A stretch of DNA of 21,827 nucleotides, taken from the IMG/VR virus record IMGVR_UViG_3300025154_000403, positions 1 to 21,827 of that record. The stretch is one strand, 5' to 3'. Positions 1 to 15,589 of the stretch are shown piece by piece (positions within the stretch are counted from its first letter, which is position 1; each line of letters opens with the position of its first letter). Source of the DNA: a virus. The notes under the pieces are model-generated. The model was not told the origin of the DNA. It did not search any database and saw only the letters and a program-made list of their open reading frames with translations. The position numbers and the translations under genes were made by a program.

Positions 1-1033
1 GGTCGCGGTTCAGGGTCTCGGAGATCTGGGCAGCGTCGTCATCACGAATATCGGAGCGCACTTCAGATTGCGCCTCGTCGCCGCCGAGCTTGCCGGGTGT
101 CCCCTGGGTGGTGGCTGACTGCCCAAGAATGCCCCGGCTGACCTGGACATCGAGCCAGTCGGCCAGCCGCATGAAGAGGGTATCGCCACCGGTGGATTTG
201 CCGCCCTCGATAAATTCGATTCTCATCGACTCGGGGATCACCGCCGCCGCATCGCTGCCCAGGTTGGCCACTGCCATCTTGAGGATCTGGATATCCTCTT
301 TCAAGGCGCCGCTCTGGTATCTGCCGAGACGCAGTGGCATGCCAAAAACCTCGGCGAAGGCCAGCCAGTCTTTCAGCGTATAGTTCTTGCAGAGGTAAGA
401 CCAGGCCGCCACCCTGGCTATCCCGCCACGGATCGGCAGGCCGGTCTTCAGATGCGGCAGGTGGACCAGAAATTTGTATGGAGCCAGCTCTACTCCCTCA
501 GCCAGATTGGCTGTATCGAGCAGGCGTATCTTGCGCCGGGACTCCCGATCAAAGATAAAGAAGCGGGGATCTCGCCATTCATAGGAGTCAGGAATCCATT
601 TCGATCCGCGCTGCCACATGATTTCCGACACCGAGTATCCCTTGCCAAGGGCGTCAAGCAGATCCTTCAACAGGCCGCGGAACCCGGCTTTTTTGACTAA
701 CGCCCGGACCTCATCGGCAAGCATGACGTCTTTGGTCTCATCACTTGCCGACTCGACCACCACCGGCAGCGACGTTACCGCCAGTCGCCTTTTGCCGATC
801 TCACAGCGGTAGTGGAGATCGCGTTCTTCCATCTCTTCAGCAAGCGTCAGGTAATCGTTCGCATCGCCGGCAGCCGCGCCCTGGAGAAGGGCAGCCAGAC
901 GGTACGGGGTCAACCCGCCGGTCACCGCATTGTCCCAAACGGTGCGCACGCCAGACAAGGTCGGTGCCGCAAGCTCCTCCTTGAGCAGCTGGCTTTTGAC
1001 CGGATTGCCGCGATGATCGTAGAGTATCGCCAT
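1..1033 (-). CDS. Mu gp29-like portal protein (DUF935), 3' end cut off
   Basis: The frame stays open on the minus strand from 1033 to the window edge, giving about 344 residues without a stop. The translation starts MAILYDHRGNPVKSQLLKEE and contains WQRGSKWIPDSYEWRDPRFF, LPIRGGIARVAAW and KDWLAFAEVFGMPLRLGRY, the pattern of Mu gp29/DUF935 portal proteins, which form the dodecameric ring at the packaging vertex. Residues near the cut (LGQSATTQGTPGKLGG) also fit the family. The start ATG at 1033 overlaps the terminase stop as TAATG and has GGGG seven bases upstream; an in-frame ATG at 1039 is less well spaced. Following directly after the terminase is the usual Mu order. The C-terminus is missing only because the window ends. 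Confidence 0.93.
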   Translation of the reverse strand, partial: MAILYDHRGNPVKSQLLKEELAAPTLSGVRTVWDNAVTGGLTPYRLAALLQGAAAGDANDYLTLAEEMEERDLHYRCEIGKRRLAVTSLPVVVESASDETKDVMLADEVRALVKKAGFRGLLKDLLDALGKGYSVSEIMWQRGSKWIPDSYEWRDPRFFIFDRESRRKIRLLDTANLAEGVELAPYKFLVHLPHLKTGLPIRGGIARVAAWSYLCKNYTLKDWLAFAEVFGMPLRLGRYQSGALKEDIQILKMAVANLGSDAAAVIPESMRIEFIEGGKSTGGDTLFMRLADWLDVQVSRGILGQSATTQGTPGKLGGDEAQSEVRSDIRDDDAAQISETLNRD

Positions 1034-2553
1034 TACCATGCCCCGCTAATAGCGCCGAATCCGGCGGTTGTTTTGATGACGCGGAAGAAATCATGATCGT
1101 CCCCACCTTTTATCTCGCGCCGGGTGACACTCTGATAGTCATATTCCATCTCGCCTTCCTGCCAGGTGGCAAACCAGCAGAGAGCACCGGCAATACCCGA
1201 ATCGCCATGCCGTTTCTTCTTGTCCTGCCCGGTGTTCTTGGTCTCCGGCAGCCGGGCTACACCTTTAAGGATCTTGAATGCCCGGTGATCCTCGATAACA
1301 TCGGCGATTCTCGGCAGCAGCCAGTTCCTGTCCTCAAATGCGGCCTTGTACTTCGGCATGTTCTCCCGGTACCAGGTCTCTGACAGCATCACCTGGCTGA
1401 CCCTGGTGGCTCCGTACTTCTGCATCGCCACCTCGGCCAGATACTGACCGTTGCCCCGGGCGTCGAAGGCCCCGTGCCTGAATCTTGGCAGGTGGTCGAT
1501 GATAAAAAAAAGGATCTGCTCCTGTTGCCGAAAGGGCATATTGCGCAGTTCAAGAGAGAAGATCGTCCGCCAGGTGGCCGCCTGGGTTTCCTGGGCTGGC
1601 ATCATGATAGTGAGATCGCCAGACCTGGCGAAGTCCTCGCCGAGAACCGTCTGCCGATTTGGATCAAGCCCGGTCAGCAGCGGAAGCAAAGTTTCTTCGC
1701 ACCAAGCCTGCACCACCGACTGACGCCAGACGTCAGCCCGTTCGTTGAATTCATCCGTCTGTTCATAGCGGACGACCGGGATATCAGCTGACATGCAGCC
1801 CTCGATCAGCGCCCGGGTAAGATATGTGCCGGCGCCCTGTGAGGGAATGCAAAACAGCTCTTCCTGCCCGGCATCGCCGTAGAAGTCGATCAGGTCCTGC
1901 CGCCACTTCGCTTCTGCCTCAGGTGACCATCCCCGGCCCAGGGTGAGGCAGATCCGTTGATACAGGCCGTCTTCTAGAGCATCGTCCAGGGTCACCCGGT
2001 GCAGGGAGTAGGGTGTTCTGCCTGCTCGTATATCATTGATCAGCTCATTGAACGGGTTGGCGTCACCGTTATGCGTGGAGATAATCCGCACCTGGCCGCC
2101 CCACATCAGAAGGGCCATGGCCGCTTTTATCAGCTCTTTTAAATCGTCATGAAAGGCAGCTTCATCAATCACTACCCGCCCGGCTTTACCGCGCAGGTTG
2201 GATGGCCTCGAAGAGAGCGCCACGATCTTATGGCCGCTGGCGAATTTTATCCGGAAGGTAAGGATGTCCTTGTCCTCGTCGGCCAGGATCTCTTCCTCCA
2301 CCGCCCCGGCCGCCAGCTGATATTTCTTTACCCAGTCGGCGCAGTCGCCGATGAACTCCTCCGCCATCTCCTTGTTGTAGCCGATGTACCAAACGTCATC
2401 GCCGCCGGTCTCGGCGGCGAACAGCGAGTCATCGGCAGCCTCCGACCAGGACAGACCGATCCGCCGCGACTTTTCCATCACCTTGACCGGTGAAGTGTCG
2501 GCGGCCCAGCGTTGCTGGTACGGCAAAAAGGCGTATGGCGTAGAGGCTGTCAT
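1033..2553 (-). CDS. Mu gp28-like terminase large subunit
   Basis: This 506-residue protein is the ATP-driven DNA-packaging motor and nuclease of a headful-packaging Mu-like phage. An adenine-motif/Walker-A-like segment EKSRRIGLSWSEA (residues 27-39) and a Walker B GRVVIDEAAFHDD (about 125-137, Asp130-Glu131) are visible, followed by a motif III-like IISTHNGDANPF. The C-terminal half carries acidic stretches (GLDPNRQTVLGEDFARSGD; FDARGNGQYLAE) expected of an RNase H-like nuclease. Length agrees with Mu gp28. It overlaps the upstream small-subunit gene by ATGA and the portal gene by TAATG, so the three are translationally coupled. Confidence 0.95.
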   Translation of the reverse strand: MTASTPYAFLPYQQRWAADTSPVKVMEKSRRIGLSWSEAADDSLFAAETGGDDVWYIGYNKEMAEEFIGDCADWVKKYQLAAGAVEEEILADEDKDILTFRIKFASGHKIVALSSRPSNLRGKAGRVVIDEAAFHDDLKELIKAAMALLMWGGQVRIISTHNGDANPFNELINDIRAGRTPYSLHRVTLDDALEDGLYQRICLTLGRGWSPEAEAKWRQDLIDFYGDAGQEELFCIPSQGAGTYLTRALIEGCMSADIPVVRYEQTDEFNERADVWRQSVVQAWCEETLLPLLTGLDPNRQTVLGEDFARSGDLTIMMPAQETQAATWRTIFSLELRNMPFRQQEQILFFIIDHLPRFRHGAFDARGNGQYLAEVAMQKYGATRVSQVMLSETWYRENMPKYKAAFEDRNWLLPRIADVIEDHRAFKILKGVARLPETKNTGQDKKKRHGDSGIAGALCWFATWQEGEMEYDYQSVTRREIKGGDDHDFFRVIKTTAGFGAISGAW

Positions 2554-2987
2554 GCGTTAATCCCCAGGATCTGCCGCCTGATTTCATTGGCGGTCTCGGG
2601 AGTGAGACCCGCCTTCGTCACTTCCTTCACTACATCCTCGGCTACCCGCTGCGTCTTTTCGAACTTGTCCCAGCGCTCCAGGAGTGCACCCAGCTTGGCC
2701 AGGGCGTCCATCTTCGGGGCTGTCCGTTCTTCGGCTGGGCAATTCTCGATATGCACCAGCTGATCCTCCCAGAGATCCCGCAGCCGCTGGATGTTGCCGC
2801 GCTTCTGCGATCGTGCCCGGTCCCACTCATCTACGGTCTGACCAGGGGCAATTGTCTCAGCCTTCCACCTGGCCAACGAGGTGATGCTCACATCCAGCTG
2901 GGCGGAGATCGCCGACAGGGTATGTCCGTCGGCATAGAGCCGCTGCGCCTGGGGGGCAAGAGATGCCTTGTCGCCTTTAGTTGCCAA
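2550..2987 (-). CDS. Mu gp27-like protein (DUF1804 type), probable small terminase subunit
   Basis: About 145 residues. The N-terminal third has a helix-turn-helix of the DUF1804/terminase small subunit style (AQRLYADGHTLSAISAQLDV, then SITSLARWKAET), followed by a charged helical region (RLRDLWEDQLVHIE; LGALLERWDKFEKTQ). It would recognise phage DNA and hand it to the large subunit. I place the start at TTG 2987, because GGAGGA lies six bases upstream and the overlap with the previous gene is then only 11 bases. The longer ATG frame (3020) adds 11 residues and lacks an obvious ribosome site. The stop overlaps the terminase start (ATGA). Confidence 0.8.
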   Translation of the reverse strand: MATKGDKASLAPQAQRLYADGHTLSAISAQLDVSITSLARWKAETIAPGQTVDEWDRARSQKRGNIQRLRDLWEDQLVHIENCPAEERTAPKMDALAKLGALLERWDKFEKTQRVAEDVVKEVTKAGLTPETANEIRRQILGINA

Positions 2988-3225
2988 GAGCTTCCTCCAG
3001 GTCGGCGATCTGGTTGGCAATCGCCAGCAGTTCTGCCTGGGTCATCACCAGTTCGTCCATAGAGTTAGCGGCTTCGGCGATCTGCATCCGCTCGATCTCC
3101 ATCAGTGCCGGGTTGATTTGATAAGGAATGGTCCGGCAGAGTGTCTTTGCCTTCATCCGCAGGCTGGTCTGCCGCTCAACCAGTTCCATCCGCCTGACCT
3201 TCATCATCGCCAGATTTTGATTCAT
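2977..3225 (-). CDS. Mu gp26-position protein, coiled-coil
   Basis: Eighty-two residues, almost wholly helical and charged (EIERMQIAEAANSMDELV; AIANQIADLEEAL), with no cysteine cluster or membrane segment. It lies where Mu carries gp26, just upstream of the gp27/gp28/gp29 packaging genes, and overlaps both neighbours (TAATG at 3225; 11 bases at its end). Small helical proteins in this position are conserved in Mu-like phages but I know of no proven function; a packaging or assembly accessory is the likely role (inference). No catalytic motif is visible. Confidence 0.7.
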   Translation of the reverse strand: MNQNLAMMKVRRMELVERQTSLRMKAKTLCRTIPYQINPALMEIERMQIAEAANSMDELVMTQAELLAIANQIADLEEALGN

Positions 3226-3614
3226 TATGCTTGTCCTTTGCCCTTGACAGAGGCTTGGATCTGACTGAAGTCGATCCGGTCAACCAGCCTGGTGATGGCC
3301 TGGGTGTTGAGGTGGATGATAGTGGACAGATCACCGGCCAGCTTTTCGTAGTTCTGCACCAGGATGATGTTGTTGTCGTACTTTCGTTCAAAGGCCAGAT
3401 AGTGTTTTTCACTGGCGGTTTGCTGCTCCTGCAGCTCTTCCTGTAAAGCAACCAGTGTTTTGGAAAGGGCCGATACCGCGGCGGCGATTTTAATGAACGC
3501 CCAGAGAGCGAACAGCGGCGGGATGACCAAAAAGATCGCGAAGATCGTTATCGCCTGAAATCCATCAATCGCTGTAAATAGTGCCGTGAGAGCACTGATC
3601 ACCGATGCATCCAC
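3225..3614 (-). CDS. N-terminal membrane-anchored coiled-coil protein (candidate i-spanin or lysis accessory)
   Basis: A 129-residue protein with one long hydrophobic stretch at about residues 19-50 (GFQAITIFAIFLVIPPLFAL and on), long enough for one or two passes. A heptad-like charged region follows (LVALQEELQEQQTASEKHYL), then a hydrophilic tail. That topology resembles inner-membrane spanins (Rz-like) and some phage accessory proteins. The short lipoprotein at 4562-4714 could be its outer-membrane partner, but the two are separated by the lysozyme and a zinc-finger gene, unlike nested Rz/Rz1. It follows the zinc-finger gene directly and overlaps the gp26-like gene. GGAGGAG lies upstream of the ATG. 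Confidence 0.72.
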   Translation of the reverse strand: MDASVISALTALFTAIDGFQAITIFAIFLVIPPLFALWAFIKIAAAVSALSKTLVALQEELQEQQTASEKHYLAFERKYDNNIILVQNYEKLAGDLSTIIHLNTQAITRLVDRIDFSQIQASVKGKGQA

Positions 3615-3824
3615 CTATCTCCTCCTTTGAGGTCCGAACTTTTCGCCGCATGTCACGCAATACTCGCAACCCATTGCCGCCTGACGCCTCGCCTCAGGAA
3701 TTTTTTCTTTGCAATTCAAACAATGGGTTCTCGATTCTCCCTGCGGTTTGTTGCGCTGCTGCTCCTCCAGGGCCTGTGCCAAATACCGGCGGTCCAGATC
3801 CTGGGCCTGTTCAAATATTTCCAT
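3615..3824 (-). CDS. DksA/TraR-type zinc-finger protein
   Basis: About 69 residues from the ATG at 3824. A short helix precedes a four-cysteine finger, Cys35-x2-Cys38 (CLNC) and Cys56-x2-Cys59 (CVTC), with the TraR-like segment IPEARRQAAMGCEYCVTCGE. TraR-type phage proteins bind the RNA polymerase secondary channel and mimic DksA plus ppGpp. Many Mu-like phages carry one among the lysis genes, as here. The N-terminal acidic motif EQAQDLDRRYL is the part expected to reach the active site. The frame extends upstream, but the 3824 start leaves a short 14-base overlap with the transglycosylase gene, which is more plausible. Confidence 0.85.
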   Translation of the reverse strand: MEIFEQAQDLDRRYLAQALEEQQRNKPQGESRTHCLNCKEKIPEARRQAAMGCEYCVTCGEKFGPQRRR

Positions 3825-4302
3825 ACATCCGCTCGATCCGTCTGACGTAATTGAACGTCTCCTCAGCATGCCTGCCGGTGATCTTCGGCAGCTGAGTCGA
3901 GACGCTTATCCATTTGGTCTTGAAGGTGGCGAGACGCTGGGCCTTGATAATGTTGCCGGCCCCGGCGTTATAGCTGGCGAACATGAAGCGCAGTCGCTCG
4001 AGATCCTCTTCCTTCTTCCAGATGTCATAGCAGCGCCGGTCATAGCAGATGCCGGCACGAATGCTGAACTCTGGATTGAATGGGTCATCGGGGATATTGA
4101 GCTTAGCTGCCATCTCGGCGGAGGTGGCGGGCATCAGCTGCATGATACCGATCGCGCCTGCAGGCGAAACCGCTTCCGGATTCAGCGTGCTCTCGGCGAT
4201 CGCCTGACACTTGAACCAATTCCAGTCGAAGTCAGGCCAGAAGAATTCACAGGTGAACCGCTGGAAAAGTTCGTTGAATTGGTTGGTGATCCGGTATGCC
4301 AT
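3811..4302 (-). CDS. SLT-type lytic transglycosylase (phage endolysin)
   Basis: A 163-residue single-domain muramidase of the Slt70/goose-lysozyme fold that cleaves peptidoglycan between MurNAc and GlcNAc. Diagnostic motifs are AIAESTLNP (catalytic Glu37), SPAGAIGIMQLMPAT (46-60) and FASYNAGAG (108-116), in the right order and spacing. No signal peptide or membrane anchor is seen, so release would depend on a holin, or the enzyme may ride in the virion. The ATG has GAGGG five bases upstream. Following genes overlap it, forming one lysis/packaging operon. In Mu this position is held by lys, which has a different fold. Confidence 0.95.
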   Translation of the reverse strand: MAYRITNQFNELFQRFTCEFFWPDFDWNWFKCQAIAESTLNPEAVSPAGAIGIMQLMPATSAEMAAKLNIPDDPFNPEFSIRAGICYDRRCYDIWKKEEDLERLRFMFASYNAGAGNIIKAQRLATFKTKWISVSTQLPKITGRHAEETFNYVRRIERMYGNI

Positions 4303-4475
4303 TTATCCCTCGTGGTTTTGCAATGTGCTCAACCTCTACAAACCGGAAACAGGGGATCAACCCTGTCCCCGGCTCATGGAGAAGATGAGGTATTACTGTA
4401 CGAAGGAAGGTATACGAGATTGAAGGTGAGAGTGTTATAGGAACTACTTCAGTAGCTTATTGCTGCAGGATTCCC

Positions 4476-4508
4476 CCGTAACCACCACGTCGAACATGGT
4501 GGTTACGG
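4476..4508. terminator. Strong 12-bp hairpin between spanin-like and lysozyme genes
   Basis: CCGTAACCACCA (4476-4487) and TGGTGGTTACGG (4497-4508) are perfect inverted repeats around a 9-base loop. The minus-strand transcript of the lysis operon would form this hairpin about 55 bases after the lipoprotein stop. No T-run follows on the minus strand, so it is more likely an RNA processing or stability element, or a rho-type/attenuation element, than a classic intrinsic terminator. The remaining stretch 4303-4561 has no convincing gene. Confidence 0.6.
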
Positions 4509-4561
4509 AGTGTCTTTTGAGGGAAGGGGAAGGTTGGCGCTCGCAAGGTTCTAATTTCGGA

Positions 4562-4714
4562 TTACTCTGCGGGATTATCTTTGGCGGCTTGACGATAAAA
4601 TTCCATCTGCTCGATAATCTCAGGAGGCAGTTCAGCGGGAGGGCGGGAGAAATACGAGCACCCGGCTGCGATGAGGATTGCCAGGCAGGCCGCTATAATT
4701 AATTTTCGTTTCAT
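4562..4714 (-). CDS. Small proline-containing lipoprotein, candidate o-spanin (Rz1-like)
   Basis: Fifty residues beginning MKRKLIIAACLAILIAAGCS. A basic start, a hydrophobic core and a lipobox ending at Cys19 (IAAGC) predict cleavage by signal peptidase II and lipidation. The mature part is only about 32 residues with PPAELPP. Short, proline-bearing lipoproteins next to a phage endolysin are typical outer-membrane spanin subunits, which join an inner-membrane spanin to disrupt the outer membrane at lysis. GGAGGAGAG precedes the ATG closely. A possible partner is the membrane/coiled-coil protein at 3225-3614. Lipoprotein assignment is firm; the spanin role is inferred from size and place. Confidence 0.75.
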   Translation of the reverse strand: MKRKLIIAACLAILIAAGCSYFSRPPAELPPEIIEQMEFYRQAAKDNPAE

Positions 4715-4747
4715 CTCTCCTCCATTTTGCCATGTAGTAATTTCTTA

Positions 4748-6202
4748 TCAATCACGCATCCGGCCGTTGCCTGTCCTGGGGGCGAGGTTGCCTGATGTGC
4801 GGAGTATGCCTTGTTTATAGCCAAACTCTACGTTTCTGTATCTATCCCACATATCGCCAATAAACCCCCACGACCCAAAAATAACATCCTCGCGCTGAAC
4901 CTCCCAACCATCGTCCAACCCATCGGCGATTGCTTCTACGCGGTCGGTATAATCAAAAAAGACATCATGATTCCATAGTGTCTTTAAATTCATCATATAT
5001 GCAATTAGCGCTGATCCTGCAAAATACACACCCCCCGAACCAGACGAACGGTATTCAGCATTCCACGCGCTGTCCCCTTTTTGCGGTGCTATAACGGCAT
5101 ACTGAAACCACTCAGGCATCCCAATCATATCAGAAGTATATGGATAGGCTGTGTTGTAGCTTTGGTCTGGGTTCCACGTACAAGTTACTCCCTGAGTGCA
5201 ATCAACCCACTCCTGAGTTATGTAGGCGGTCATTTTATCCTCCCCGAACTGGATGTAATCTGCCGGAACTGGTCCGTACCCATCTGCGTAATCCCCAGAT
5301 TTTTGACCAATACTCAGCATATCCGTATCATTAAAAAGTCTGCCAGCAAACAATATTGGCATCTTTTTCCCATACCCGAACCCGGCTTGTGAGTTCCACC
5401 CAGGCTGGCCTGACGCAACGACCCCATACACGTCAATGCAAAACTGCAAATAGTTGATTAGCAGTGGCATTTTAGCCTCTAGGCTGGTGTTGGTATGTAG
5501 AGTTAAGGCCGCTTCGATGACTTTTTGTGGAAAATAGTAATTATCTGGCACATTATCATTAGGCAAAATATATCGACTGGCAAGATCACCCGCTATGTGC
5601 ATAAGCCACGGACGTGAGAAATATCCAGCCTGAGTTGTGATGTTTGGGATAGTTGTTGCTGAAAGTGATCGCAGAAGATTTGTTTGTATCTGTGACACGT
5701 TGAATAGTTTTTTGTCTGGATCACTATACCCTGGTCTAAAGGTTCCTGCCGGTGGTGCGGAAGCAAGACACGTTAAAACTGCCGCAGTTTTTAGGTACCC
5801 GGTATAGACATTTGGCACAAATGGAGTGGCGTTACTGATAGCAGAGACAAGCGACTCTCCAGCATTTAATGTCAATGGTGTCTCTGTGGAGATACCGATC
5901 CCTACATTTGTCCCAGCCGTATAATTGCCTGTTCCGTCATAGCTTTGGGAGTCTACTGGATTTATCATGCTGCCATTCATCGGCCTTGGGTCTGCCGTGG
6001 ACCCTGGCGTAATGTTTATAATGTCAACCCCACTTCCAGAGTCTACAACCCAGTAATCACCATTCACAAATTGGCCGTATTCCACTTGCCCAGAAAAAGT
6101 CCAGGCAACGCCGAACTGTGTGATGGTGTCAGTTGTTGCAGACAAACTAGGTAATACATACAGCACTATTGCAAGTAGATTAATTACCCCAATTCGTATC
6201 AC
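4748..6202 (-). CDS. Large exported protein of unknown function, possibly an alpha/alpha-barrel polysaccharide-active protein
   Basis: The 484-residue product starts at GTG 6202 with GGAGG six bases upstream. Residues 1-22 (MIRIGVINLLAIVLYVLPSL and on) form a Sec signal peptide. The middle contains helical segments with aromatic and glycine-rich turns (AGYFSRPWLMHIAGDLASRY; NSQAGFGYGKKMPILFAGRL) that remind me of alpha/alpha-toroid lyases or hydrolases acting on polysaccharides. I see no certain catalytic set, so this is only a suggestion. The C-terminus is hydrophilic with no anchor. The gene is AT-richer than the phage core and overlaps the 248-residue gene upstream by 23 bases. A tail-associated depolymerase is possible, but a signal peptide would be unusual for one. 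Confidence 0.75.
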   Translation of the reverse strand: MIRIGVINLLAIVLYVLPSLSATTDTITQFGVAWTFSGQVEYGQFVNGDYWVVDSGSGVDIINITPGSTADPRPMNGSMINPVDSQSYDGTGNYTAGTNVGIGISTETPLTLNAGESLVSAISNATPFVPNVYTGYLKTAAVLTCLASAPPAGTFRPGYSDPDKKLFNVSQIQTNLLRSLSATTIPNITTQAGYFSRPWLMHIAGDLASRYILPNDNVPDNYYFPQKVIEAALTLHTNTSLEAKMPLLINYLQFCIDVYGVVASGQPGWNSQAGFGYGKKMPILFAGRLFNDTDMLSIGQKSGDYADGYGPVPADYIQFGEDKMTAYITQEWVDCTQGVTCTWNPDQSYNTAYPYTSDMIGMPEWFQYAVIAPQKGDSAWNAEYRSSGSGGVYFAGSALIAYMMNLKTLWNHDVFFDYTDRVEAIADGLDDGWEVQREDVIFGSWGFIGDMWDRYRNVEFGYKQGILRTSGNLAPRTGNGRMRD

Positions 6203-6926
6203 TTCTGGCCTCCAGGGTATCCCATATAACGTCTACTCCGCGCCGAAATAAATACAATCCAATTTCAGCCGGTTGGTCTGTTTGAGTAATAGCCATACTG
6301 GTTGACCACCCGCTCACTGCGGCAAAATTACTATCCATTATTGACAATGTGATAGAGGTGGCCGGGATATAGGTGATAAACAGATAATAAGTGCCAGCGC
6401 CAAACAACGTTGTATCGGCAGGATCTATCGTTGTCGTCGAGGTGGCCTTACCCTTTACAGATATCCTATTAGTCGTGTCGGCGTCTATTCGTAAAAAACC
6501 ATCTAAAACAGATACTGCCGAAGCGTTATATAGATAAACCCCGAAGGCAAAATCGAGATCGGACAGTGCGTATGATGCGATCCTGAACGCGACCCTATAA
6601 TATGTAGTGCCACTTGCCTGTGGCCCAAACTGCCATTTTGCCACTCTTGCCTCGTCAGCCGCATCGTTGCCCTCTGCAAACGCCGACTGCGCCCCCTCAA
6701 GTACAAGCGTGGTATAGTCGTCGTTCCACCCTGTAGGGGTGGCGTCTATTTGGGCATCGCTAATTTCGTCATTGAAATCTACATACAGGAGCCCGGTAAA
6801 TGTTGGTGCAGCAGGCGCACTCGCAGTAAGCTCGGCAATCTCTGAAGGAGAAAACGCCCACGCCCAAGACGAGACAAAGCAGAGCAGTATAGAGATTGCA
6901 ATGATGAATTTTCTCATATCAATCAT
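6180..6926 (-). CDS. Exported protein, probable beta-sandwich (ConA/LamG-like) domain
   Basis: This 248-residue protein starts with a Sec signal peptide (MRKFIIAISILLCFVSSWAW, then AFS). The mature chain is rich in Thr, Ser, Asp and aromatic residues in alternating strands, for example TGLLYVDFNDEISDAQ, TTYYRVAFRIASYAL, FGVYLYNAS and YYLFITYIPATSITLSIMD. It closes with EIGLYLFRRGVDVIWDTLEA, as in jelly-roll carbohydrate-binding or LamG-like domains. Fold assignment is by eye. The start at 6926 overlaps the preceding stop as ATGA; ATG 6917 (MRKF) is an alternative. Its place between two other exported proteins suggests one surface-acting or carbohydrate-binding module. Confidence 0.75.
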   Translation of the reverse strand: MIDMRKFIIAISILLCFVSSWAWAFSPSEIAELTASAPAAPTFTGLLYVDFNDEISDAQIDATPTGWNDDYTTLVLEGAQSAFAEGNDAADEARVAKWQFGPQASGTTYYRVAFRIASYALSDLDFAFGVYLYNASAVSVLDGFLRIDADTTNRISVKGKATSTTTIDPADTTLFGAGTYYLFITYIPATSITLSIMDSNFAAVSGWSTSMAITQTDQPAEIGLYLFRRGVDVIWDTLEARSDTNWGN

Positions 6927-7732
6927 GCGCCTCCGCTATGATCTTGCAGATTGCATTTCCGGTATTGCGGATAAAGCATCCATACGAGCCATGTAACATT
7001 TATCCACGTCATCGTTATAACACCCGCACCGCCGCCTACCGTCAAAACAATCCCGCGCTCATAACCTGATGCTGGTGGAGATGTGATTACAGGAGTATAT
7101 GTGGCTGTGCTTGCCCCGTTGCTGAAATAATAGTGGTCGGCACTCGCACCGTCGATATTGATATTTCCTGTTCCTGTCGTGGTGGAGGTTGCCGAGGGAT
7201 ATGATGCCCCAGCGATGGTCTGTTTTAGTGCAAGCGCCTCATCCATTTGCTCGTATGTCGGAGCAATTTTCTGTTTATCGGTGGTCGGCGTGGTATCGCT
7301 GATAATCGGCCTGAGTGGAGTAGCTGTGCCTGTCCCTGACCCTGCTCCCGAGGCCGTGAACTCTACCCCGATTGTATTTGCAGATGCGCCAATTGCGGTG
7401 AAATCTGTGGTGCCTACCGCTGTGATTACGTAGACAACTCCGGTTTCAAACGTCCCGGCTGTCTGCTCTGATCCGGTTATGGTGAGGTCGGAGTAACTGG
7501 CAGCATTGAAGGCTATATTTTCCTTGTCGGCTTTATCTGCCAACAGAGCATTGATTTCAGTTTCAGTGTAGAAAACACCCTGTAGCTGCGTCTTATGGTC
7601 AGCCCACGTCTGCCAAATCTGAGCTGACCCGTTCCATCCATAAACTTGATCCGTATCGGTGAAGTCGGTAGCTGTTGCTGCGAACGGACAGGCCAGCAAT
7701 GCAATAATTAATGGTGCGAATATTTTTTTCAT
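6923..7732 (-). CDS. Tail-fibre-like protein with an N-terminal signal peptide
   Basis: From ATG 7732 (GAGGG upstream) the product has 269 residues. It begins MKKIFAPLIIALLACPFAAT, a Sec signal peptide cleaved near ATA-TD. The following sequence, FYTETEINALLADKADKEN and then GVVYVITAVGTTDFTAIGAS with ANTIGVEFTASGAGSGTGTA, is of a type common in phage tail fibres and tail-associated repeats. A C-terminal GYERGIVLTVGGGAGVITM resembles fibre tip domains. The last 25 residues (TWLVWMLYPQYRKCNLQDHS and on) do not look like a continuation, suggesting truncation or a frameshift. A fibre-like protein with a signal peptide is odd, since virion proteins are normally assembled in the cytoplasm. Confidence 0.75.
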   Translation of the reverse strand: MKKIFAPLIIALLACPFAATATDFTDTDQVYGWNGSAQIWQTWADHKTQLQGVFYTETEINALLADKADKENIAFNAASYSDLTITGSEQTAGTFETGVVYVITAVGTTDFTAIGASANTIGVEFTASGAGSGTGTATPLRPIISDTTPTTDKQKIAPTYEQMDEALALKQTIAGASYPSATSTTTGTGNINIDGASADHYYFSNGASTATYTPVITSPPASGYERGIVLTVGGGAGVITMTWINVTWLVWMLYPQYRKCNLQDHSGGA

Positions 7733-7739
7733 TTTACCC

Positions 7740-8291
7740 TCATGCTGGATTGTAAGCTGGTGAGTCATCTGGATTGAACATTAAACTATCGTCTGGATTT
7801 ACTGCTTGTTCGACGGAAGTAGTATATCTGCCGAGGTAGGTCTGTACTCTCACCGCCTGTGCTGACATATCACCAGTGTAAATAACAACCCCGCCTCTCG
7901 TTGGATGAAAGCCAATCCAGGCAAAATCTACATTGAGTAACGCGTACCATTCAGCACCTGACCGGACTATCGGAGCCATGCTATTAGCGGAGTCAAAGAA
8001 GACATCCCCTCCAAGGTCAGTGTCGGCTTGCAAGGTGACTGCATTGCTTGGAAAAGCCCACGTAGCATTAGGCAAATCAGCAATCGTCCCCGTTGTCAGG
8101 GTTATGCTTGATTCGCCGATAATACCAATCATATTATTTTTGATCAGCCAGGCCCCAGCCAGGCCGTCTCGAGGCAGCCCGCCATTGTTCAGATCAACCG
8201 CGTTGCCCCAGCCGTACAGCTCGGGAAACAGCTCTTCGATCGCTTGCACACTCAGGCGTTGCAGGTTTTTCTTCGGAGCGAGATCATCCAT
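7740..8291 (-). CDS. Hypothetical phage surface or fibre accessory protein
   Basis: This 183-residue product is coupled to the 119-residue gene by TGATG, with CGGAG upstream. No signal peptide. A helical N-terminus (LQRLSVQAIEELFPELYGWG) precedes a strand-rich part (GAWLIKNNMIGIIGESSITL; WAFPSNAVTLQADTDLGGDV; EWYALLNVDFAWIGFHPTRG). The C-terminus has a degenerate tandem motif NPDD in VNPDDSLMFNPDDSPAYNPA. I do not recognise the family. The soluble beta-rich body and the position before a fibre-like gene suggest a structural or adhesive role (inference). Confidence 0.7.
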   Translation of the reverse strand: MDDLAPKKNLQRLSVQAIEELFPELYGWGNAVDLNNGGLPRDGLAGAWLIKNNMIGIIGESSITLTTGTIADLPNATWAFPSNAVTLQADTDLGGDVFFDSANSMAPIVRSGAEWYALLNVDFAWIGFHPTRGGVVIYTGDMSAQAVRVQTYLGRYTTSVEQAVNPDDSLMFNPDDSPAYNPA

Positions 8292-8650
8292 CACGCAGCT
8301 CCGCGCACGCGCATGGCAAAGGCGGCCATGTCCGCGCCGCCGGTGTTCTCGACCACGATTTTGACGGCAGGACAGAGCAGGCTGCTGTAGAGAAAGAAGG
8401 CCGGAGTGCCGGCAGTCACCGTGCCAACATCGGACACCGCGCCGGCTGTTACGCCGTCCGGCAAACGAACGAGCTTCACCGTGCAGTTTTTGTCGGCGCT
8501 GATGTCGATGCCGATCCTGCTGGCCATGATCGTGTTGATCACCGCGGACTCGCGCACCGGATCGGCCGCCGTGATTATCTCCTCGTCAACCAGCAGCAAC
8601 GTGCTGCCGGTGCCGATATTTCCTGTCGGCACGCGTAGCTTATCTTCCAT
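8291..8650 (-). CDS. Hypothetical beta-rich phage protein, first gene of the cargo block
   Basis: The 119-residue product has a strong ribosome site (GGAGG four bases before ATG). Sequence such as KLRVPTGNIGTGSTLLLVDE, CTVKLVRLPDGVTAG and FFLYSSLLCPAVKIVVENTG suggests a small beta-sandwich, in the style of phage head-decoration or fibre-attachment proteins. There is no signal peptide and no known motif. It is the first of five overlapping genes read toward the lysis genes and is separated from the recombinase by 111 bases, where a promoter or terminator could lie. Confidence 0.7.
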   Translation of the reverse strand: MEDKLRVPTGNIGTGSTLLLVDEEIITAADPVRESAVINTIMASRIGIDISADKNCTVKLVRLPDGVTAGAVSDVGTVTAGTPAFFLYSSLLCPAVKIVVENTGGADMAAFAMRVRGAA

Positions 8651-8734
8651 AAAACCTCCGTTAAGGGCGCATTAAAAAAAGAAACGGACCATCTCCAGCT
8701 CGTGAAGATAGCCCGTTCCGTCAACAAAATTCAT

Positions 8735-8748
8735 CTGAACCAGTTCAG
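8735..8748. repeat. Short palindrome downstream of the tyrosine recombinase
   Basis: CTGAAC-CA-GTTCAG is a 6-bp inverted repeat with a 2-base centre, 14-27 bases after the recombinase stop. It could be a regulatory protein site or a weak crossover-type site; nothing further supports either. The rest of 8651-8761 has no supported gene beyond a 20-codon open frame discussed in the findings. Confidence 0.35.
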
Positions 8749-8761
8749 TACTTGCGCTGTG

Positions 8762-9607
8762 TCACCCAAGCAGCGATTCTATCATCCTGCTTGCTTCGGC
8801 AACACTGACCTGCCCAAGATAGCGTTGGGTTGTCGTCAGGTCAGCATGCCGCAAAATAACCTTGCTGACCATCTCCAGCGGGATGCCTGCCCTGGAGGCC
8901 TGGGTTGCCGCGTGCCGCCTTAAATCGTGCGGCCTGAGACTGACACCGACAGCTTGCCCATGTTCCTTGACCATCCTGAAAGCGGTGGAATACGAGATAG
9001 GGAAAATCCTCTCACCGGCAGCTATTCTTTTGACGCGAACATAGTCATCCAGGCGCCGCATCATCTTCTGAGGAACATAAACAAACTCTCCTTGCCGCCC
9101 TGATTTTGGCTGCTCAATAGAGATTGTGCTCACCTCGATATTCAAGTCTCGAGGCCGGATGCTTAGGACCTCACCCACCCTCATCGCAGCACGGCCCATC
9201 AGCTCGAGCATCAGGCGATCACGCCCGTTGGCACGATAGATGATCTCGTCTACAACCTCTTTGTCAAGCAGCTCGGGAGACACGCAGCGCGGCTTTTTAT
9301 AAAGCTTCTTGATAATCCCTCTGCTGCACGGATTGGTAAAATCGAGGTCGAAGACATCTTTGACAAAATTGAAAAATGCTGAGAGATGACACACTCGGTT
9401 ATTCTTCGTTGCCGATGACAGCCCGTCGGTCAAGATCTCCAGAAACGTAGAGAGATCGCTTTCGGTCACCGCGGTAATATCGATTCCAGAAAAGAGGTCC
9501 GCGAACTTTCCGAGCGTGTATGAAAACGCCCTGATCGTATTCGGCCTGGAATTTGCTTGGTGATAATCCATATAGGCTTTGACGCCTTGTTCCACAGTCA
9601 TATTCAT
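8762..9607 (-). CDS. Tyrosine recombinase (XerC/D-type integrase)
   Basis: 281 residues from ATG 9607, chosen because GGAGG sits seven bases upstream and the start overlaps the preceding stop (GGATGA). The N-terminal core-binding SAM-like domain spans about 5-100 (RPNTIRAFSYTLGKFADLFS). The catalytic set is complete: Arg143 in RAAMRVGEVLSI, Lys168 in EQPKSGRQGE, His227 and Arg230 in PHDLRRHA, His254 in LRHADLTTTQ, and nucleophile Tyr263 in QRYLGQV. It should be active in site-specific strand exchange. Mu-like phages move by transposition and do not need one, so its presence after Mor suggests a hitchhiking module or a resolution/inversion role. Start at 9628 is possible but less well supported. 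Confidence 0.92.
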   Translation of the reverse strand: MNMTVEQGVKAYMDYHQANSRPNTIRAFSYTLGKFADLFSGIDITAVTESDLSTFLEILTDGLSSATKNNRVCHLSAFFNFVKDVFDLDFTNPCSRGIIKKLYKKPRCVSPELLDKEVVDEIIYRANGRDRLMLELMGRAAMRVGEVLSIRPRDLNIEVSTISIEQPKSGRQGEFVYVPQKMMRRLDDYVRVKRIAAGERIFPISYSTAFRMVKEHGQAVGVSLRPHDLRRHAATQASRAGIPLEMVSKVILRHADLTTTQRYLGQVSVAEASRMIESLLG

Positions 9608-9798
9608 CCTGTTACCTCCTTCAGCCATGCATCCAACTCAGATAAGAATTGCTCCATTTTCAAAACTCTGACCTCCGTCCTCCTCCGGTGGAAAAAGGCG
9701 ATGACGCTCGGTTTCTCTAAATTCGTTTTCAGTATGATATATTGATCAGCCAAGGCATTGCGGGCCTCGGCTATAGCCTCGATTGGAATGCTATCCAT
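9604..9798 (-). CDS. Small helical protein coupled to the recombinase
   Basis: Sixty-four residues from ATG 9798 (GAGGG about six bases upstream), beginning MDSIPIEAIAEARNALADQY and ending FLSELDAWLKEVTG. It is mixed helical with a basic stretch FFHRRRTEVR. No cysteine cluster or membrane segment. Its stop overlaps the recombinase start (ATGA), and the recombinase ribosome site lies inside its last codons, so the two are translationally coupled. It may be a directionality or accessory factor for the recombinase, but nothing in the sequence proves that. A longer start overlapping Mor is less likely. Confidence 0.65.
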   Translation of the reverse strand: MDSIPIEAIAEARNALADQYIILKTNLEKPSVIAFFHRRRTEVRVLKMEQFLSELDAWLKEVTG

Positions 9799-9809
9799 TA
9801 GGACCCTCA

Positions 9810-10160
9810 TCAAAATAGCCGTAACTGTTTGTCTTCTCCAGGCTCTCTCCCCAGGATGGTCCACACCTGTCGCTCACTCAACCTGGCCCAGCGGGCGATG
9901 TCCTGGACCCGCTCGCCATTGTCGTACCTTTCGATGATGACCCGATTGCGGGCCTGCCGTTTCAGATCATCCAGGTTGCGGCAATACAGATGCGTGCCGC
10001 GAAATTCGGTAACGATCCGCAGCACGATCCGCACGCCATAGCCTGGAACCATCCCCTCGATTACCCGGGCGAGCTGCGCCAGATCTCCCGGCAGTTCGTC
10101 AATGTTGGGGACCAGGTCATCGGGGAGATGATCAAACTCAGCGGTATTCGACATCGACAT
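9810..10160 (-). CDS. mor: Mor-family transcriptional activator
   Basis: The 116-residue protein matches the Mu Mor/C family. After an acidic leader, DELPGDLAQLARVIEGM and GVRIVLRIVTEFRGTHLYC correspond to the dimerisation region. The C-terminal helix-turn-helix (ARNRVIIERYDNGERVQDIA, then RWARLSERQVWTIL) binds DNA. In Mu, Mor is made from the early operon and turns on the middle promoter. Here it closes the early operon just after GemA, overlapping its end. ATG 10154 has a better-spaced GAGAGG than ATG 10160. No second family member (a C late activator) is seen in the window. Confidence 0.93.
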   Translation of the reverse strand: MSMSNTAEFDHLPDDLVPNIDELPGDLAQLARVIEGMVPGYGVRIVLRIVTEFRGTHLYCRNLDDLKRQARNRVIIERYDNGERVQDIARWARLSERQVWTILGREPGEDKQLRLF

Positions 10161-10575
10161 CCTCTCTCGCTGCCCATTGTTTCAATGATTCGATCAGCCG
10201 GTTGAGCTGCCCGCTATCGCACCATTTCAAGTTATCGACGCCGATCTGGCGTTTGACGTAGGCCTGCAGGGCCAGGTCGCTCCGGTTGCGCACCACCCCG
10301 GCATCGGCCAGGGTAATCCACAGGGCCAGCACCTTGCGCCGCTGGCCGTCCGCATACACCGGGCTGGATTTTGACGGCTTTGCCGGTCGGCTTTTCGCCT
10401 GCCAACCCTTGGCCCGGAACTTGTTGAGCAGCACGGTGGCCTGCCGCTCATCGAGCTGCGCAGCCGACTCCACCTTGAAGTGCAGATAGAGCATGTCCCG
10501 GTACACTTCATCCGTGAGACCAAGTGCCTTCTTGGCGATATGGATCTTTGCCAATGCTGCTTTTGAGGGAGGCAT
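10138..10575 (-). CDS. gemA: GemA-like protein (Mu gp16, DUF1018)
   Basis: From ATG 10575 (CGGAG seven bases upstream) the protein has 145 residues. Its start, MPPSKAALAKIHIAKKALGL then TDEVYRDMLY, is diagnostic of the GemA/DUF1018 family. A middle segment (ERQATVLLNKFRAKGWQ), a basic linker, and the C-terminal GQRRKVLALWITLADAGVVR with LKWCDSGQLNRLIESLKQW also match. In Mu, GemA (gp16) is reported to modulate host gene expression and DNA topology; the mechanism is unclear. It lies directly before Mor, as in Mu. Confidence 0.93.
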   Translation of the reverse strand: MPPSKAALAKIHIAKKALGLTDEVYRDMLYLHFKVESAAQLDERQATVLLNKFRAKGWQAKSRPAKPSKSSPVYADGQRRKVLALWITLADAGVVRNRSDLALQAYVKRQIGVDNLKWCDSGQLNRLIESLKQWAAREDVDVEYR

Positions 10576-10577
10576 TG

Positions 10578-10910
10578 TCACACTCCGATAAGCTCATTGA
10601 TTTCCGCATCAGTGCAGCCATAGTCTTCACGCAGGGAATCGATGAGGCTTTCCACCTGAGATCGCAGTCTCTTGATCTCGGTTGCGTCCGCCTTCATCCT
10701 TCCCTGGTCGACATGGCCACCGCCGCCCAAGAGCAACCCGGGCGCGAACTCACAGAGGATATCAGCCAATATCTTCGGCGTATTCTTGGCGAGCTCCCTA
10801 ACGGCCAAACACATGAAACACACCATTTTGCCATGGCTGGTTCTCAGTATTGATTCTCTCCCGCAGCACTCACATGCGGCTGCCGCCGTTCCTGGAATCG
10901 TATTTTTCAT
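10578..10910 (-). CDS. Zinc-ribbon protein of unknown function
   Basis: 110 residues. The N-terminus has two CxxC pairs, CECCGRESI (about 13-19) and MVCFMCLAV (about 29-37), spaced as in a small zinc ribbon. A glycine-rich loop (LLLGGGGHVD) and a helical C-terminus (IKRLRSQVESLIDSLREDYG) follow. It overlaps the GemA gene and the preceding gene by four bases each. Several short Cys-rich proteins lie in this part of the operon; regulatory or nucleic-acid-binding roles are likely (inference). I do not recognise a named family. Confidence 0.75.
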   Translation of the reverse strand: MKNTIPGTAAAACECCGRESILRTSHGKMVCFMCLAVRELAKNTPKILADILCEFAPGLLLGGGGHVDQGRMKADATEIKRLRSQVESLIDSLREDYGCTDAEINELIGV

Positions 10911-11269
10911 GATGATTTCCTTGCCAGCACGTACCGGCCATAGCGAACATCTTCACCGAAGCGGTTGACGGTCTTGACCAGGTGAGTTTCAATGTCATGT
11001 TTCTGGCGCAGATCATTGATCCTGGCAGCCAGCCGCAGGATGCCGTATTCCTGCAGGGCCTGAATGGGATCGATCGAGCCGAAGGTCTCCAGATGCCGCA
11101 GCACCTTTTTCTCTTGATTCATTACGCTATCCTCCTCAATTAATTCCGGGCCCACAATTTGCGGCCGCACCTGGTATGACAACCCCTGTCGCATCAAGCC
11201 ATTCCGACAATCCGAACAGATTCCGGATTCACTAAAATCACCATGACCGCAGCCAGCGCAGATGCTCAT
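10907..11269 (-). CDS. Zinc-ribbon plus winged-helix (HTH_55-like) protein
   Basis: The 120-residue frame has an N-terminal four-Cys finger (CAGC at 4-7, and CSDC at 18-21), a linker, and then a helix-turn-helix unit (QEKKVLRHLETFGSIDPIQA, then LQEYGILRLAARINDLRQK) and a strand-like tail. That second unit is the short winged-helix domain found as a separate small protein in many phages. An in-frame ATG at 11122 preceding this unit has GAGGAGG nine bases upstream, so a 71-residue short form may be made too. It overlaps both neighbours by four bases. Confidence 0.75.
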   Translation of the reverse strand: MSICAGCGHGDFSESGICSDCRNGLMRQGLSYQVRPQIVGPELIEEDSVMNQEKKVLRHLETFGSIDPIQALQEYGILRLAARINDLRQKHDIETHLVKTVNRFGEDVRYGRYVLARKSS

Positions 11270-11814
11270 CCTTGCATCCTATCTTTCTTCCAGACCGCCA
11301 TTTCTTCGTCAGTGGGTTTATCGTCCCGCAGTCCCTGGATATAGGCATCGAGCGGACTCTGGATCGAGGCAATAGGATCGGGGCTGGCGGATCTGGTCAC
11401 CCGGTTGGTTCTGGCTGATTGCTCTGCCTGGGAGTCCGCCTTGTCTGCCATGTCCCAGGCCACCTTGCTCAGGTATTTATGATTCTTCAGCGGCAGGATG
11501 AGAGAAATGCGGTTATCCACCATCTGCTCCATAGCCTGGGCCCAGATCCGCGGCGGGCAGTTGCGATCGACCTTGCCCTGGACATTGACATAGCCGCAGG
11601 CCGTGAGGCTGCGGATCTCCTCGCTGAGCCGCAGGGCCTTCTTCCAGGTAAGCCCGGTTTTGCCAGGCCTGAACAGCGATATATAACTGAGGACCGCTTT
11701 CGGCAGCGGAGCGGGCAGGGTGGCGATCACGGCCAAAGCCTCGCGGCACAGGCCATCATTCATCCAGGTGTCGGCACTGGCGATCGCGCCGCATGCAGGG
11801 CAAATCAACTTCAT
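11266..11814 (-). CDS. Zinc-ribbon phage regulatory-type protein
   Basis: 182 residues from ATG 11814, which overlaps the preceding stop as TGATG and has GGAGGAA about nine bases upstream. It begins MKLICPACGAIASADTW, half of a zinc ribbon, continues with helices (KKALRLSEEIRSLTACGYVN; RIWAQAMEQMVDNR) and ends in a polar tail. The arrangement recalls conserved Mu-like phage proteins of unknown function in the early operon. No catalytic motif. It overlaps the next gene by four bases. Confidence 0.75.
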   Translation of the reverse strand: MKLICPACGAIASADTWMNDGLCREALAVIATLPAPLPKAVLSYISLFRPGKTGLTWKKALRLSEEIRSLTACGYVNVQGKVDRNCPPRIWAQAMEQMVDNRISLILPLKNHKYLSKVAWDMADKADSQAEQSARTNRVTRSASPDPIASIQSPLDAYIQGLRDDKPTDEEMAVWKKDRMQG

Positions 11815-11981
11815 CAATGATTCCTCCAAGGGCACCACTGGCCATTTCGTTTACACCATTCACCCCGCGCCTTGCGGCACCATTCAACGGGGCAGGTGCT
11901 CCCGGTCGGATAGGCTATACAGTCGGGCAGCTCAATTGGTTTTTCGTTCTCTTTCTTGGCCTGCTTGTGTTCTTCTTGCAT
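11814..11981 (-). CDS. Small Cys/Trp-rich protein
   Basis: A 55-residue protein with GAGGAA upstream of the ATG. The lysine- and glutamate-rich start (MQEEHKQAKKENEKPIELPD) precedes a compact domain with cysteines at 21, 30, 35, 43 and 50 and tryptophans beside them (CPVEWCRKARGEWCKRNGQW). The spacing suggests a metal-binding or disulfide-free zinc knuckle. It is coupled to the next gene by TGATG. I do not know the function; similar small proteins lie in early operons of transposable phages. Confidence 0.72.
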   Translation of the reverse strand: MQEEHKQAKKENEKPIELPDCIAYPTGSTCPVEWCRKARGEWCKRNGQWCPWRNH

Positions 11982-12010
11982 CGTTATTCCTCATTGGCTG
12001 GCATCATCAG

Positions 12011-12058
12011 GCCGGTGGAACCACCCACCGGCGACCCCGGACAGGCCGGGGTTTCGCC
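12011..12058. repeat. Two abutting strong hairpins between early genes
   Basis: GCCGGTGG (12011-12018) pairs with CCACCGGC (12025-12032), and ACCCCGG (12034-12040) pairs with CCGGGGT (12046-12052). The second can extend with GGCGA/TCGCC (12030-12034, 12054-12058), which competes with the first stem. They fill the only real gap in this part of the operon (11982-12062). No T-run follows on either strand. A structured RNA element for termination, processing or translation control is possible. Confidence 0.6.
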
Positions 12059-12062
12059 TTAA

Positions 12063-12326
12063 TCACTCAGGAGTTTTTAAAAATTCTGCCGGGCAATCAG
12101 GATTCTTCGAGATGTTATCGAGCTGCCACTCATACATTGCATCGGCGTGTTCATTCGCATGATCGGCTAAGTCAAAGTCTCCGGATGCGTTCACCAATTC
12201 AGCCCACATGCGGACAACTGCAGGAACAAATCGATCACTTGCCCGAAGTAGGAATACAGGTTCGTCTTCGCCGATCTTTCCTTCAGGGTCTTGAATTCTG
12301 TTATAGTCTGCTCTTCCATGGATCAT
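12063..12326 (-). CDS. Conserved-type small phage protein
   Basis: 87 residues starting MIHGRADYNRIQDPEGKIGE, a start I associate with small proteins in transposable and other phages (dYNRIQDP...EDEPVFLLRA). The rest is acidic and helical (DLADHANEHADAMYEWQLDN). No cysteine fingers or membrane segments. GGAGCG precedes the ATG, and the start overlaps the upstream stop (ATGA). Function unknown. The following hairpin pair could end or stabilise its message. Confidence 0.72.
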   Translation of the reverse strand: MIHGRADYNRIQDPEGKIGEDEPVFLLRASDRFVPAVVRMWAELVNASGDFDLADHANEHADAMYEWQLDNISKNPDCPAEFLKTPE

Positions 12327-12517
12327 GATTCGCTCCTTGTTGTTGTTCCTGATAATTTGCAGAAGGCCCGCAGGCCATCGCTATCCTCTATGGTGCCGTT
12401 GTAATAACCGCACCGCTGCCACTCTTTGGTGCCTTCCATCTTGCAGGTGCAGGTCCCATCAATGGGACATTCAGCTACAATCTCGGTTGCCCGCCGAATG
12501 GCTTTACGCTGCGTCAT
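12323..12517 (-). CDS. Small Cys-containing protein
   Basis: 64 residues; MTQRKAIRRATEIVAECPID is followed by GTCTCKMEGTKEWQRCGYYN, with Cys at 17, 23, 25, 36 and 53. The cysteine pattern suggests a small metal-binding fold. It overlaps the preceding gene by 14 bases and the next by four. Function unknown. Confidence 0.62.
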   Translation of the reverse strand: MTQRKAIRRATEIVAECPIDGTCTCKMEGTKEWQRCGYYNGTIEDSDGLRAFCKLSGTTTRSES

Positions 12518-12785
12518 GGCTGGTCTCTTTCATTTTGACAAAGGCTTTATCGCCAATCAGACGGCGGAGACCTTCTTCATTGCAATACTTATCGCAAACG
12601 TTTTTCTCGTGGACCCGATACTTGATGCTGTTCTCAAGGCCGATTACCTTGCAGCGTGGCTCAATGTGGAGCGGATTGCCATCGCAGCTCATAACCTGGA
12701 AGTTTCTCACGAAATGGTCGCAGCCGCCGCAATTCCTACTGGTTCCGCCCTTCTTGTATTTGAGTTGTTCTTTTATCTTCAGCAT
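12504..12785 (-). CDS. Small Cys-rich protein
   Basis: About 93 residues from ATG 12785 (MLKIKEQLKYKKGG), which overlaps the previous stop. It contains CGGCDHF, SCDG, PRCKVIG and NVCDKYC, seven cysteines in all, consistent with one or two zinc-binding knuckles. The upstream extension of the frame (to 12869) lies inside the preceding gene and lacks a ribosome site. Function unknown; it belongs to the run of Cys-rich early proteins. Confidence 0.68.
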   Translation of the reverse strand: MLKIKEQLKYKKGGTSRNCGGCDHFVRNFQVMSCDGNPLHIEPRCKVIGLENSIKYRVHEKNVCDKYCNEEGLRRLIGDKAFVKMKETSHDAA

Positions 12786-12955: not shown

Positions 12956-12957
12956 CG

Positions 12958-13786: not shown

Positions 13787-13816
13787 CGCATTAATCTGTT
13801 CATCAAAAAGCCCAAG

Positions 13817-13975: not shown

Positions 13976-13988
13976 GGTCATCATCTCC

Positions 13989-14829: not shown

Positions 14830-14833
14830 AATC

Positions 14834-15523: not shown

Positions 15524-15558
15524 GTACATTCCTCCTTGTGTTGATTTTTTGTTGAAGA

Positions 15559-15589
15559 GGCCCGGTGTTCTGCGCACCGGGCCTTTTTT
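15559..15589 (+). terminator. Intrinsic terminator facing plus-strand transcription
   Basis: GGCCCGGTG (15559-15567) and CACCGGGCC (15575-15583) form a perfect 9-bp GC-rich stem with a 7-base loop, followed by TTTTTT (15584-15589). Polarity is plus; the early operon runs on the minus strand, where no T-run follows the stem. It could stop antisense transcription entering from the left. Confidence 0.8.

Follow-up and report, generated by a model that had tools for sequence, protein, structure and literature searches.

Exported proteins in a Mu-like phage

Why does a Mu-like phage carry a run of genes for apparently exported proteins between its activator and recombinase genes on one side and its lysis genes on the other? 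We examined this question in a virus record from IMG/VR (IMGVR_UViG_3300025154_000403; its 21,827 nucleotides, about 21.8 kb, are called the window here), which covers part of a Mu-like phage genome and is read along the minus strand. From the repressor, which is on the plus strand, the genes run through a MuA-type transposase, early genes and a Mor-type activator to a tyrosine recombinase; then come the block under study, a lytic transglycosylase, the terminase and the portal. The markers of a Mu-like carrier are all present, as an earlier sequence-only reading of this DNA had proposed: a DDE transposase (phrog_310, E = 2.7e-80), an activator (phrog_836), a terminase (TerL, phrog_2) and a portal (phrog_113, E = 5.9e-102). 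The block occupies positions 8650-4748 of the minus strand, with the recombinase on one side and the lysis transglycosylase on the other. The same reading had described it as five overlapping genes, and we found five tightly overlapping open reading frames (ORFs; 8650-8291, 8294-7740, 7768-6923, 6926-6180 and 6202-4748), with successive overlaps of 4, 29, 4 and 23 bases and a Shine-Dalgarno-like sequence ahead of each. From its sequence and that of its relatives, export of the large products and a modular construction of the block are both well supported. The features of the block are listed below; L003 is a second contig that carries a version of it, and L005 is a further relative.

8291-8650, minus strand: first gene of the unit, a native-looking 119-residue protein, no signal peptide (ORF; third-position GC, GC3, 0.78, like the phage core)
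7740-8294, minus strand: 184-residue protein, no signal peptide (GC3 0.50), with the C-terminal end NPDDSPAYNPA, a tag in common with a 475-residue protein of L003
6923-7732, minus strand: exported fibre-like protein, 269 residues, in the ORF opening at 7768; ribosome-binding site (RBS) GAGGG before the ATG at 7732
7670-7732, minus strand: its signal peptide, MKKIFAPLIIALLACPFAATA followed by TD (score 4.33), conserved in L003 and L005
6180-6926, minus strand: exported 248-residue protein, predicted to be beta-rich, lectin-like by analogy
6855-6926, minus strand: its signal peptide, a shared leader module, MIDMRKFIIAISILLCFVSSWAWA followed by F (...LLCFVSSWAWA, then F; score 4.74); relatives have ...LILCLWASASWA followed by FPPGFIG
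4748-6202, minus strand: exported 484-residue protein, a beta-sandwich (residues 22-146) plus a helical alpha/alpha region, putative glycan depolymerase (phrog_34846, E = 4.7e-28)
6137-6202, minus strand: its signal peptide (GTG start), MIRIGVINLLAIVLYVLPSLSA followed by TT (score 3.30)
4735-4803, minus strand: C-terminal tag RTSGNLAPRTGNGRMRD and the bases after it, a conserved exchange border (95.7% DNA identity over 69 bases to L003)

Signal peptides were scored by a home-made rule over the n, h and c regions, used in place of SignalP, with a cut-off of 3.2 that was fixed after the cassettes had been looked at. The 269-, 248- and 484-residue proteins all pass, as do 3/3 large proteins in the corresponding cassette of contig G002 and 3/4 in that of G001, whereas none of the 132 non-cassette ORFs from the three phages does; the claim that three of the proteins carry Sec signals was thus upheld. 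Across cassettes the leaders have canonical n, h and c regions with small-x-small sites, in a layout that stays constant though the hydrophobic cores vary. Judged from these comparisons the leaders are genuinely coding and conserved, and they are confined to the cassettes.

The block is foreign to the window phage

Base composition sets most of the block apart. The segment 4748-7768 has a GC content of 48.0%, compared to a mean of 55.2% (standard deviation 1.3, minimum 53.4%) for non-overlapping windows of the same length within 1-19853, which bears out the remark that the 4.75-7.7 kb part is AT-richer than the core. GC3 is 0.44-0.50 in the low-GC part and 0.60-0.78 in the phage core, and the switch falls within the 184-residue gene, leaving the 119-residue gene on the native side. 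Composition by itself would not be enough to pick out the block, because a low GC content (44.7%) is also seen at the repressor end of the window.

Relatives point the same way. In two Mu-like phages, MuM16-1 and YPCBV-1, the interval from the middle genes to the terminase contains nothing but small genes and lysis genes, with a serine protease added in MuM16-1. By searching 395 Desulfobacterota genomes we found Mu-like prophages with related terminases in 15 (E <= 1e-60, identity up to 75%), so a host in or near Desulfobacterota is plausible. The cassette is absent from the seventeen stretches that we read, of which some, including the one with 75% identity, stop too near the terminase to tell. 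Wherever this region is available from related Mu-like phages and prophages, the block therefore has no counterpart, as had been supposed. Like a moron, it is inserted where these relatives have adjoining genes and differs from the backbone in composition, and by these sequence comparisons it is foreign to the window phage. A search of the same 395 genomes with the enzyme family of the 484-residue protein gave two matches, neither with an exported cassette in view. A pattern scan of genome contigs for lysogens with the cassette gave ten matches; L030, the only one examined, is a ribonucleotide reductase, and therefore a chance match.

Payloads are exchanged between fixed leaders and tags

The cassette is present in eleven distinct contigs, including the window (G000-G004, G007-G009 and G408-G410), with at least four backbones; morphotypes were assigned from gene content. 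Three others (G005, G006 and G010) have the enzyme domain only and no cassette. We found no Mu-type transposase in the other ten cassette contigs. The sampling is narrow, because the contigs are mostly fragments and several come from the neighboring accessions 3300025000, 3300025009 and 3300025011.

One of these contigs is L003 (the 63-kb contig G002), whose head-gene and replication set is unlike that of the window. Its cassette follows the window's gene order: first a 105-residue protein and a 475-residue one that ends in NPDDSPAYNPA, next three exported products (a fibre, a second protein and a right-handed beta-helix protein), and then a lipoprotein, a papain-like peptidase (phrog_16701, at 12774-13454, between cassette and lysis gene), a transglycosylase and the terminase. 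Between the two blocks, DNA identity is limited to three segments: the fibre's leader together with its N-terminal half (83% over 591 bases), the second leader (75% over 110) and the C-terminal tag of the last gene (96% over 69). In L003 this tag forms the end of the unrelated beta-helix gene, and a scan for further copies of it found L003 only. The C-terminal tag of the 184-residue protein (EQAVNPDDSLMYNPDDSPAYNPA) likewise recurs on the 475-residue protein. In the N-terminal half of the fibre, dN/dS (nonsynonymous to synonymous rates) is approximately 0.09 between window and L003, and the ratios are inverted in the other frames, a sign of purifying selection on the gene.

The second leader shows the same pattern more widely. 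It occurs in L003, L004, L079, L080 and L082, the last three of which came from a scan for its AFPPGFI motif. The window's copy is 38-66% identical to those of the five other cassettes, in front of an unrelated payload; over all six, the leaders are 38-82% identical, and their payloads have no significant BLASTP match except in the pair L079/L082. Three contigs related to one another, L010, L011 and L020 (67, 20 and 65 kb), provide an independent set of cassettes, whose exported genes lie between capsid and head-completion genes wherever the contig extends that far. Between L010 and L011 the DNA of backbone genes is 90-93% identical, whereas the cassette proteins reach just 49-59%. As in the window and L003, the conserved parts of this set (L010 compared with L020 and L011) are the signal peptide with the N-terminal part of the fibre, and the C-terminal tags. 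From these alignments we conclude that the leaders and the C-terminal tags stay in place while the domains carried between them, the payloads, are swapped from phage to phage.

The payloads of sister cassettes include beta-helix proteins in L003 and L080, a PcRGLX (rhamnogalacturonan-lyase-like) protein in L004, jelly-roll-like proteins, and exported proteins with weak LamG and weak Polysacc_lyase matches in L010 and L011. The exported proteins of the latter two contigs also have MopE and cysteine-rich motifs, which fit an oxidizing compartment.

A putative glycan depolymerase with a fibre-like and a putative lectin-like partner

The 484-residue protein belongs to phrog_34846, the hmmscan match extending across residues 20-424. 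By TBLASTN it is related to proteins of Omegavirus mycobacteriophages (E = 2e-30; Redno2 gp43, 28% identity over residues 18-420). Its AlphaFold (AF2) model has a predicted local distance difference test score (pLDDT) of 75 and a predicted template modeling score (pTM) of 0.83, and Foldseek matched it in BFVD to a 706-residue entry of the same length as gp43 (8.8e-23). Searches of Pfam, NCBIfam and PDB sequences gave nothing useful. The weak best fold matches, made with VIA-align, are the polysaccharide lyases (PL) PL5 (4f10, Z = 4.0), PL17 (3.4) and PL26 (2.9), together with the glycoside hydrolase (GH) GH127 and complement C4b (Z of 4.0 or less). In an alignment (A3), R156, P157, K244, Q253 and D257 are conserved. 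The enzyme domain directly follows the signal peptide; unlike a tail-spike depolymerase, the protein has no virion-anchoring N-terminal domain. By analogy with its weak PL and GH fold matches and with the glycan-enzyme payloads of sister cassettes, the 484-residue protein is probably glycan-active, so the suggestion that the large protein acts on polysaccharide stands at that strength. A homolog in Microcystis phages is annotated as a carbohydrate esterase, and in one of these, Mwe-JY25 (L007), an integrase gene lies just upstream of the homolog. Another homolog (L012, 7896-9263) has a signal-peptide-like N-terminus and is on a contig that looks like bacterial chromosome, with aldo/keto reductase and serine-recombinase neighbors, though it is filed as viral.

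For the 248-residue protein the model has a pLDDT of 41, too low to give a fold; the protein, described earlier as a beta-sandwich, is predicted to be beta-rich, and its lectin-like character is putative, by analogy. The gene for the fibre-like protein is read from the ATG at 7732, which its RBS favors, giving 269 residues. Its product is built from virion-fibre modules, as the earlier description of a fibre-like protein implied, and residues 96-137 match a module of a cyanophage virion structural protein. The 3' end of this gene (6923-7000) is out of frame with the homologous knobs of L004 and L080, the matching tail lying in another frame with some bases missing. The C-terminal knob of the window copy may therefore be damaged or mis-assembled, by a lesion or an assembly error.

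Role of the cassette

We consider it slightly more probable than not that the block is a mobile, modular cassette whose late-made, Sec-exported fibre, lectin-like and glycan-depolymerase proteins digest surface or matrix polysaccharide around lysis. The swapping of payloads behind the same tags in unrelated phages suggests that these phages secrete a glycan-digesting kit at that time. The proteins would be made in the late phase, as their position suggests, and exported by Sec to the periplasm ahead of lysis; opening of the envelope would free them to bind and cut polysaccharide on the surfaces or in the matrix of the host population. Progeny would thereby get clear of cell debris and biofilm and find new cells to infect, and payload exchange would track changes in host glycans, much as tail-spike exchange does in virion depolymerases.

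Several points weigh against this. Late expression is read from gene position alone, the signal-peptide calls depend on a home-made rule, and the putative glycan activity is assigned by analogy. Foldseek searches of PDB libraries with the 484-residue model gave no match at E <= 0.001, and the VIA-align Z score is at most 4. In G409 the cassette directly follows the tail genes, the customary site of virion fibres, and the Redno2 homolog is fused to LamG, has no signal peptide, and lies in the tail/lysis region next to minor tail genes.

The last two observations belong to the main rival, which is that the products are virion parts: fibre or spike subunits that are exported and join the particle during or after lysis, or that use a hydrophobic N-terminus as virion anchor. 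Attachment to the virion is the main rival because the parts derive from fibres and because of the position of the G409 cassette; the Redno2 gene of the tail region in which the 484-residue domain is joined to LamG also fits it, and the conserved C-terminal tags could serve for docking. Assembly in the cytoplasm would require no signal peptide, whereas these have cleavage sites and are conserved, G001 has its own tail-fibre-like gene without a signal peptide behind the tape measure, and the cysteine-rich and MopE motifs indicate an oxidizing compartment. On balance we regard virion parts as unlikely. The finding that the sequence-only reading named as contrary to its view, ordinary virion proteins without signal peptides in related phages, was made only for the distant Redno2, the relatives with cassettes having retained theirs. 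That the N-termini are not signal peptides at all, and the block is an ordinary tail-fibre module misread, would agree with the fibre-like modules and with our use of a home-made rule, but it is contradicted by the clean controls, by the canonical regions and small-x-small sites, by a layout that persists across differing hydrophobic cores, and by window ORFs that start at the leader, each with its own RBS; we regard it as highly improbable.

A role in the lysogen was the other option raised at the outset: a lysogenic-conversion moron, with exported proteins made from the prophage that trim or coat the host surface (for superinfection exclusion, adhesion or nutrient use). The foreign GC content, the insertion relative to related phages, the upstream terminator and the temperate Mu-like carrier are all in keeping with it. 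Against this, the same cassette is found in backbones without a Mu-type transposase and, in G001, inside the morphogenesis genes, and in the window only approximately 30 bases separate the terminator from the first gene of the block, and no convincing sigma-70 promoter was found. We think a moron quite unlikely. In the window, G001, G002 and L005, lysis-type genes adjoin the cassette; this adjacency, with the occurrence in phages lacking a Mu-type transposase, leads us to favor the lytic-phase alternative of release and spread. Overall, the interpretation offered from the sequence is partly supported.

The reading of polysaccharide digestion around lysis could also be elaborated into a more specific proposal, which we hold to be rather doubtful: that fibre, lectin and depolymerase are exported before lysis through the shared secretion-leader cassette and self-assemble into a complex, either a free matrix-dissolving machine or one that joins progeny virions outside the cytoplasm, with payloads exchanged between leader and tag sockets. 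If so, joining of virions outside the cytoplasm would be a new route of appendage assembly in tailed phages.

Comparison with known phage depolymerases

Phage depolymerases are usually viewed as virion spikes or as enzymes passively freed by lysis, and to our knowledge virion depolymerases rely on anchors, not signal peptides. The cassette resembles tail-spike and tail-fibre depolymerases in its beta-helix or lyase-type glycan enzymes, its fibre modules and the exchange of domains between phages. It differs in having a Sec signal peptide where theirs have the N-terminal anchor that attaches them to the virion, and in encoding fibre, lectin-like protein and enzyme as separate exported proteins. 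Omegavirus gp43 (Redno2), the homolog of the 484-residue domain, carries LamG where the window protein has its signal peptide, is annotated "lysin A" without test, and comes from a phage of a mycobacterial host.

Soluble, non-virion depolymerases are known from Bacillus phages, where PghP and LevP/GH32 are thought to clear the phage's way (PMC6966330, PMC4595243); phage GH32 enzymes are reported to lack a signal peptide (PMC4595243). Like these, the cassette enzymes are phage-encoded and, as their export signals suggest, would act outside the virion, but here Sec leaders are found on several linked proteins and the hosts are likely Gram-negative. Phages of Porphyromonas gingivalis are reported to encode predicted substrates of the host's Sec pathway whose function is unknown; the parts of that report available to us describe no fibre/lectin/depolymerase cassette and no leader-payload exchange (PMC10367356). 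The soil-virus chitosanase V-Csn, a polysaccharide-degrading enzyme from an environmental phage gene, is presented as an auxiliary metabolic gene and, in the portion of the source available, is a single enzyme rather than an exported multi-protein cassette (PMC9485262). In our searches of open-license papers we found no description of exported fibre, lectin and depolymerase genes that are linked and exchanged as a set.

In the cassettes, fibre, lectin-like and enzyme parts with Sec leaders move as one swappable unit among unrelated environmental phages. If our favored reading of polysaccharide digestion around lysis is correct, phages would be actively secreting, at lysis or before it, a glycan-degrading kit that serves as a public good, with a bearing on phage spread in biofilms and on polysaccharide turnover. 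Many viral "auxiliary" carbohydrate enzymes could then be reinterpreted as cassette parts, and the leader and tag borders could be used to find new exported glycan enzymes.

Flanking genes and control elements

The surroundings of the block contain the following features.

9810-10160, minus strand: Mor/C-type late activator (phrog_836, E = 6.4e-11; Mor, PF08765)
8762-9628, minus strand: tyrosine recombinase beside the cassette (PF00589, E = 6.8e-20; phrog_1)
8735-8748, no strand assigned: perfect palindrome CTGAAC-TG-GTTCAG (CTGAACTGGTTCAG), just upstream of the terminator and the unit, candidate operator or activator site
8681-8719, minus strand: intrinsic terminator at the boundary of recombinase and cassette (17-pair stem and TTTTTTT; -25.1 kcal/mol, z = -4.6)
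4562-4714, minus strand: small lipoprotein, 50 residues (from its translation), MKRKLIIAACLAILIAAG followed by CSYFS
4476-4508, minus strand: strong 17-pair hairpin in the gap between the lipoprotein and lysis transglycosylase genes (-29.6 kcal/mol, z = -5.9; the transcribed strand lacks a U-run)
3811-4302, minus strand: lysis transglycosylase (PF01464, E = 1.3e-19; phrog_669, endolysin)

The palindrome occurs in the window only once as an exact match. A tyrosine recombinase is present inside a transposable phage, directly adjoining an imported block. Inversion of the block by this recombinase as a fibre switch was rejected, there being no long inverted repeats around the block (the best distant pairs are 17 nucleotides, 82%). 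We also ruled out a programmed frameshift joining the overlapping ORFs, because every gene has its own Shine-Dalgarno sequence and each exported gene its own leader.

The 119-residue protein had no match in family searches, and the counterpart position is held by a 105-residue gene in G002 and G408. The lipoprotein gene comes after those of the three exported proteins, and a lipoprotein gene likewise follows the cassette in L003, L010 and L082. Between the cassette and the lysis genes of L010 (12722-13192), and also in L011, there is a lipoprotein with a phospholipase A2-like CCWQHDFDY motif. Downstream of the cassette in L079 (7606-8070) is a homolog of staphylococcal nuclease (SNase) with a signal peptide, which could digest extracellular DNA.

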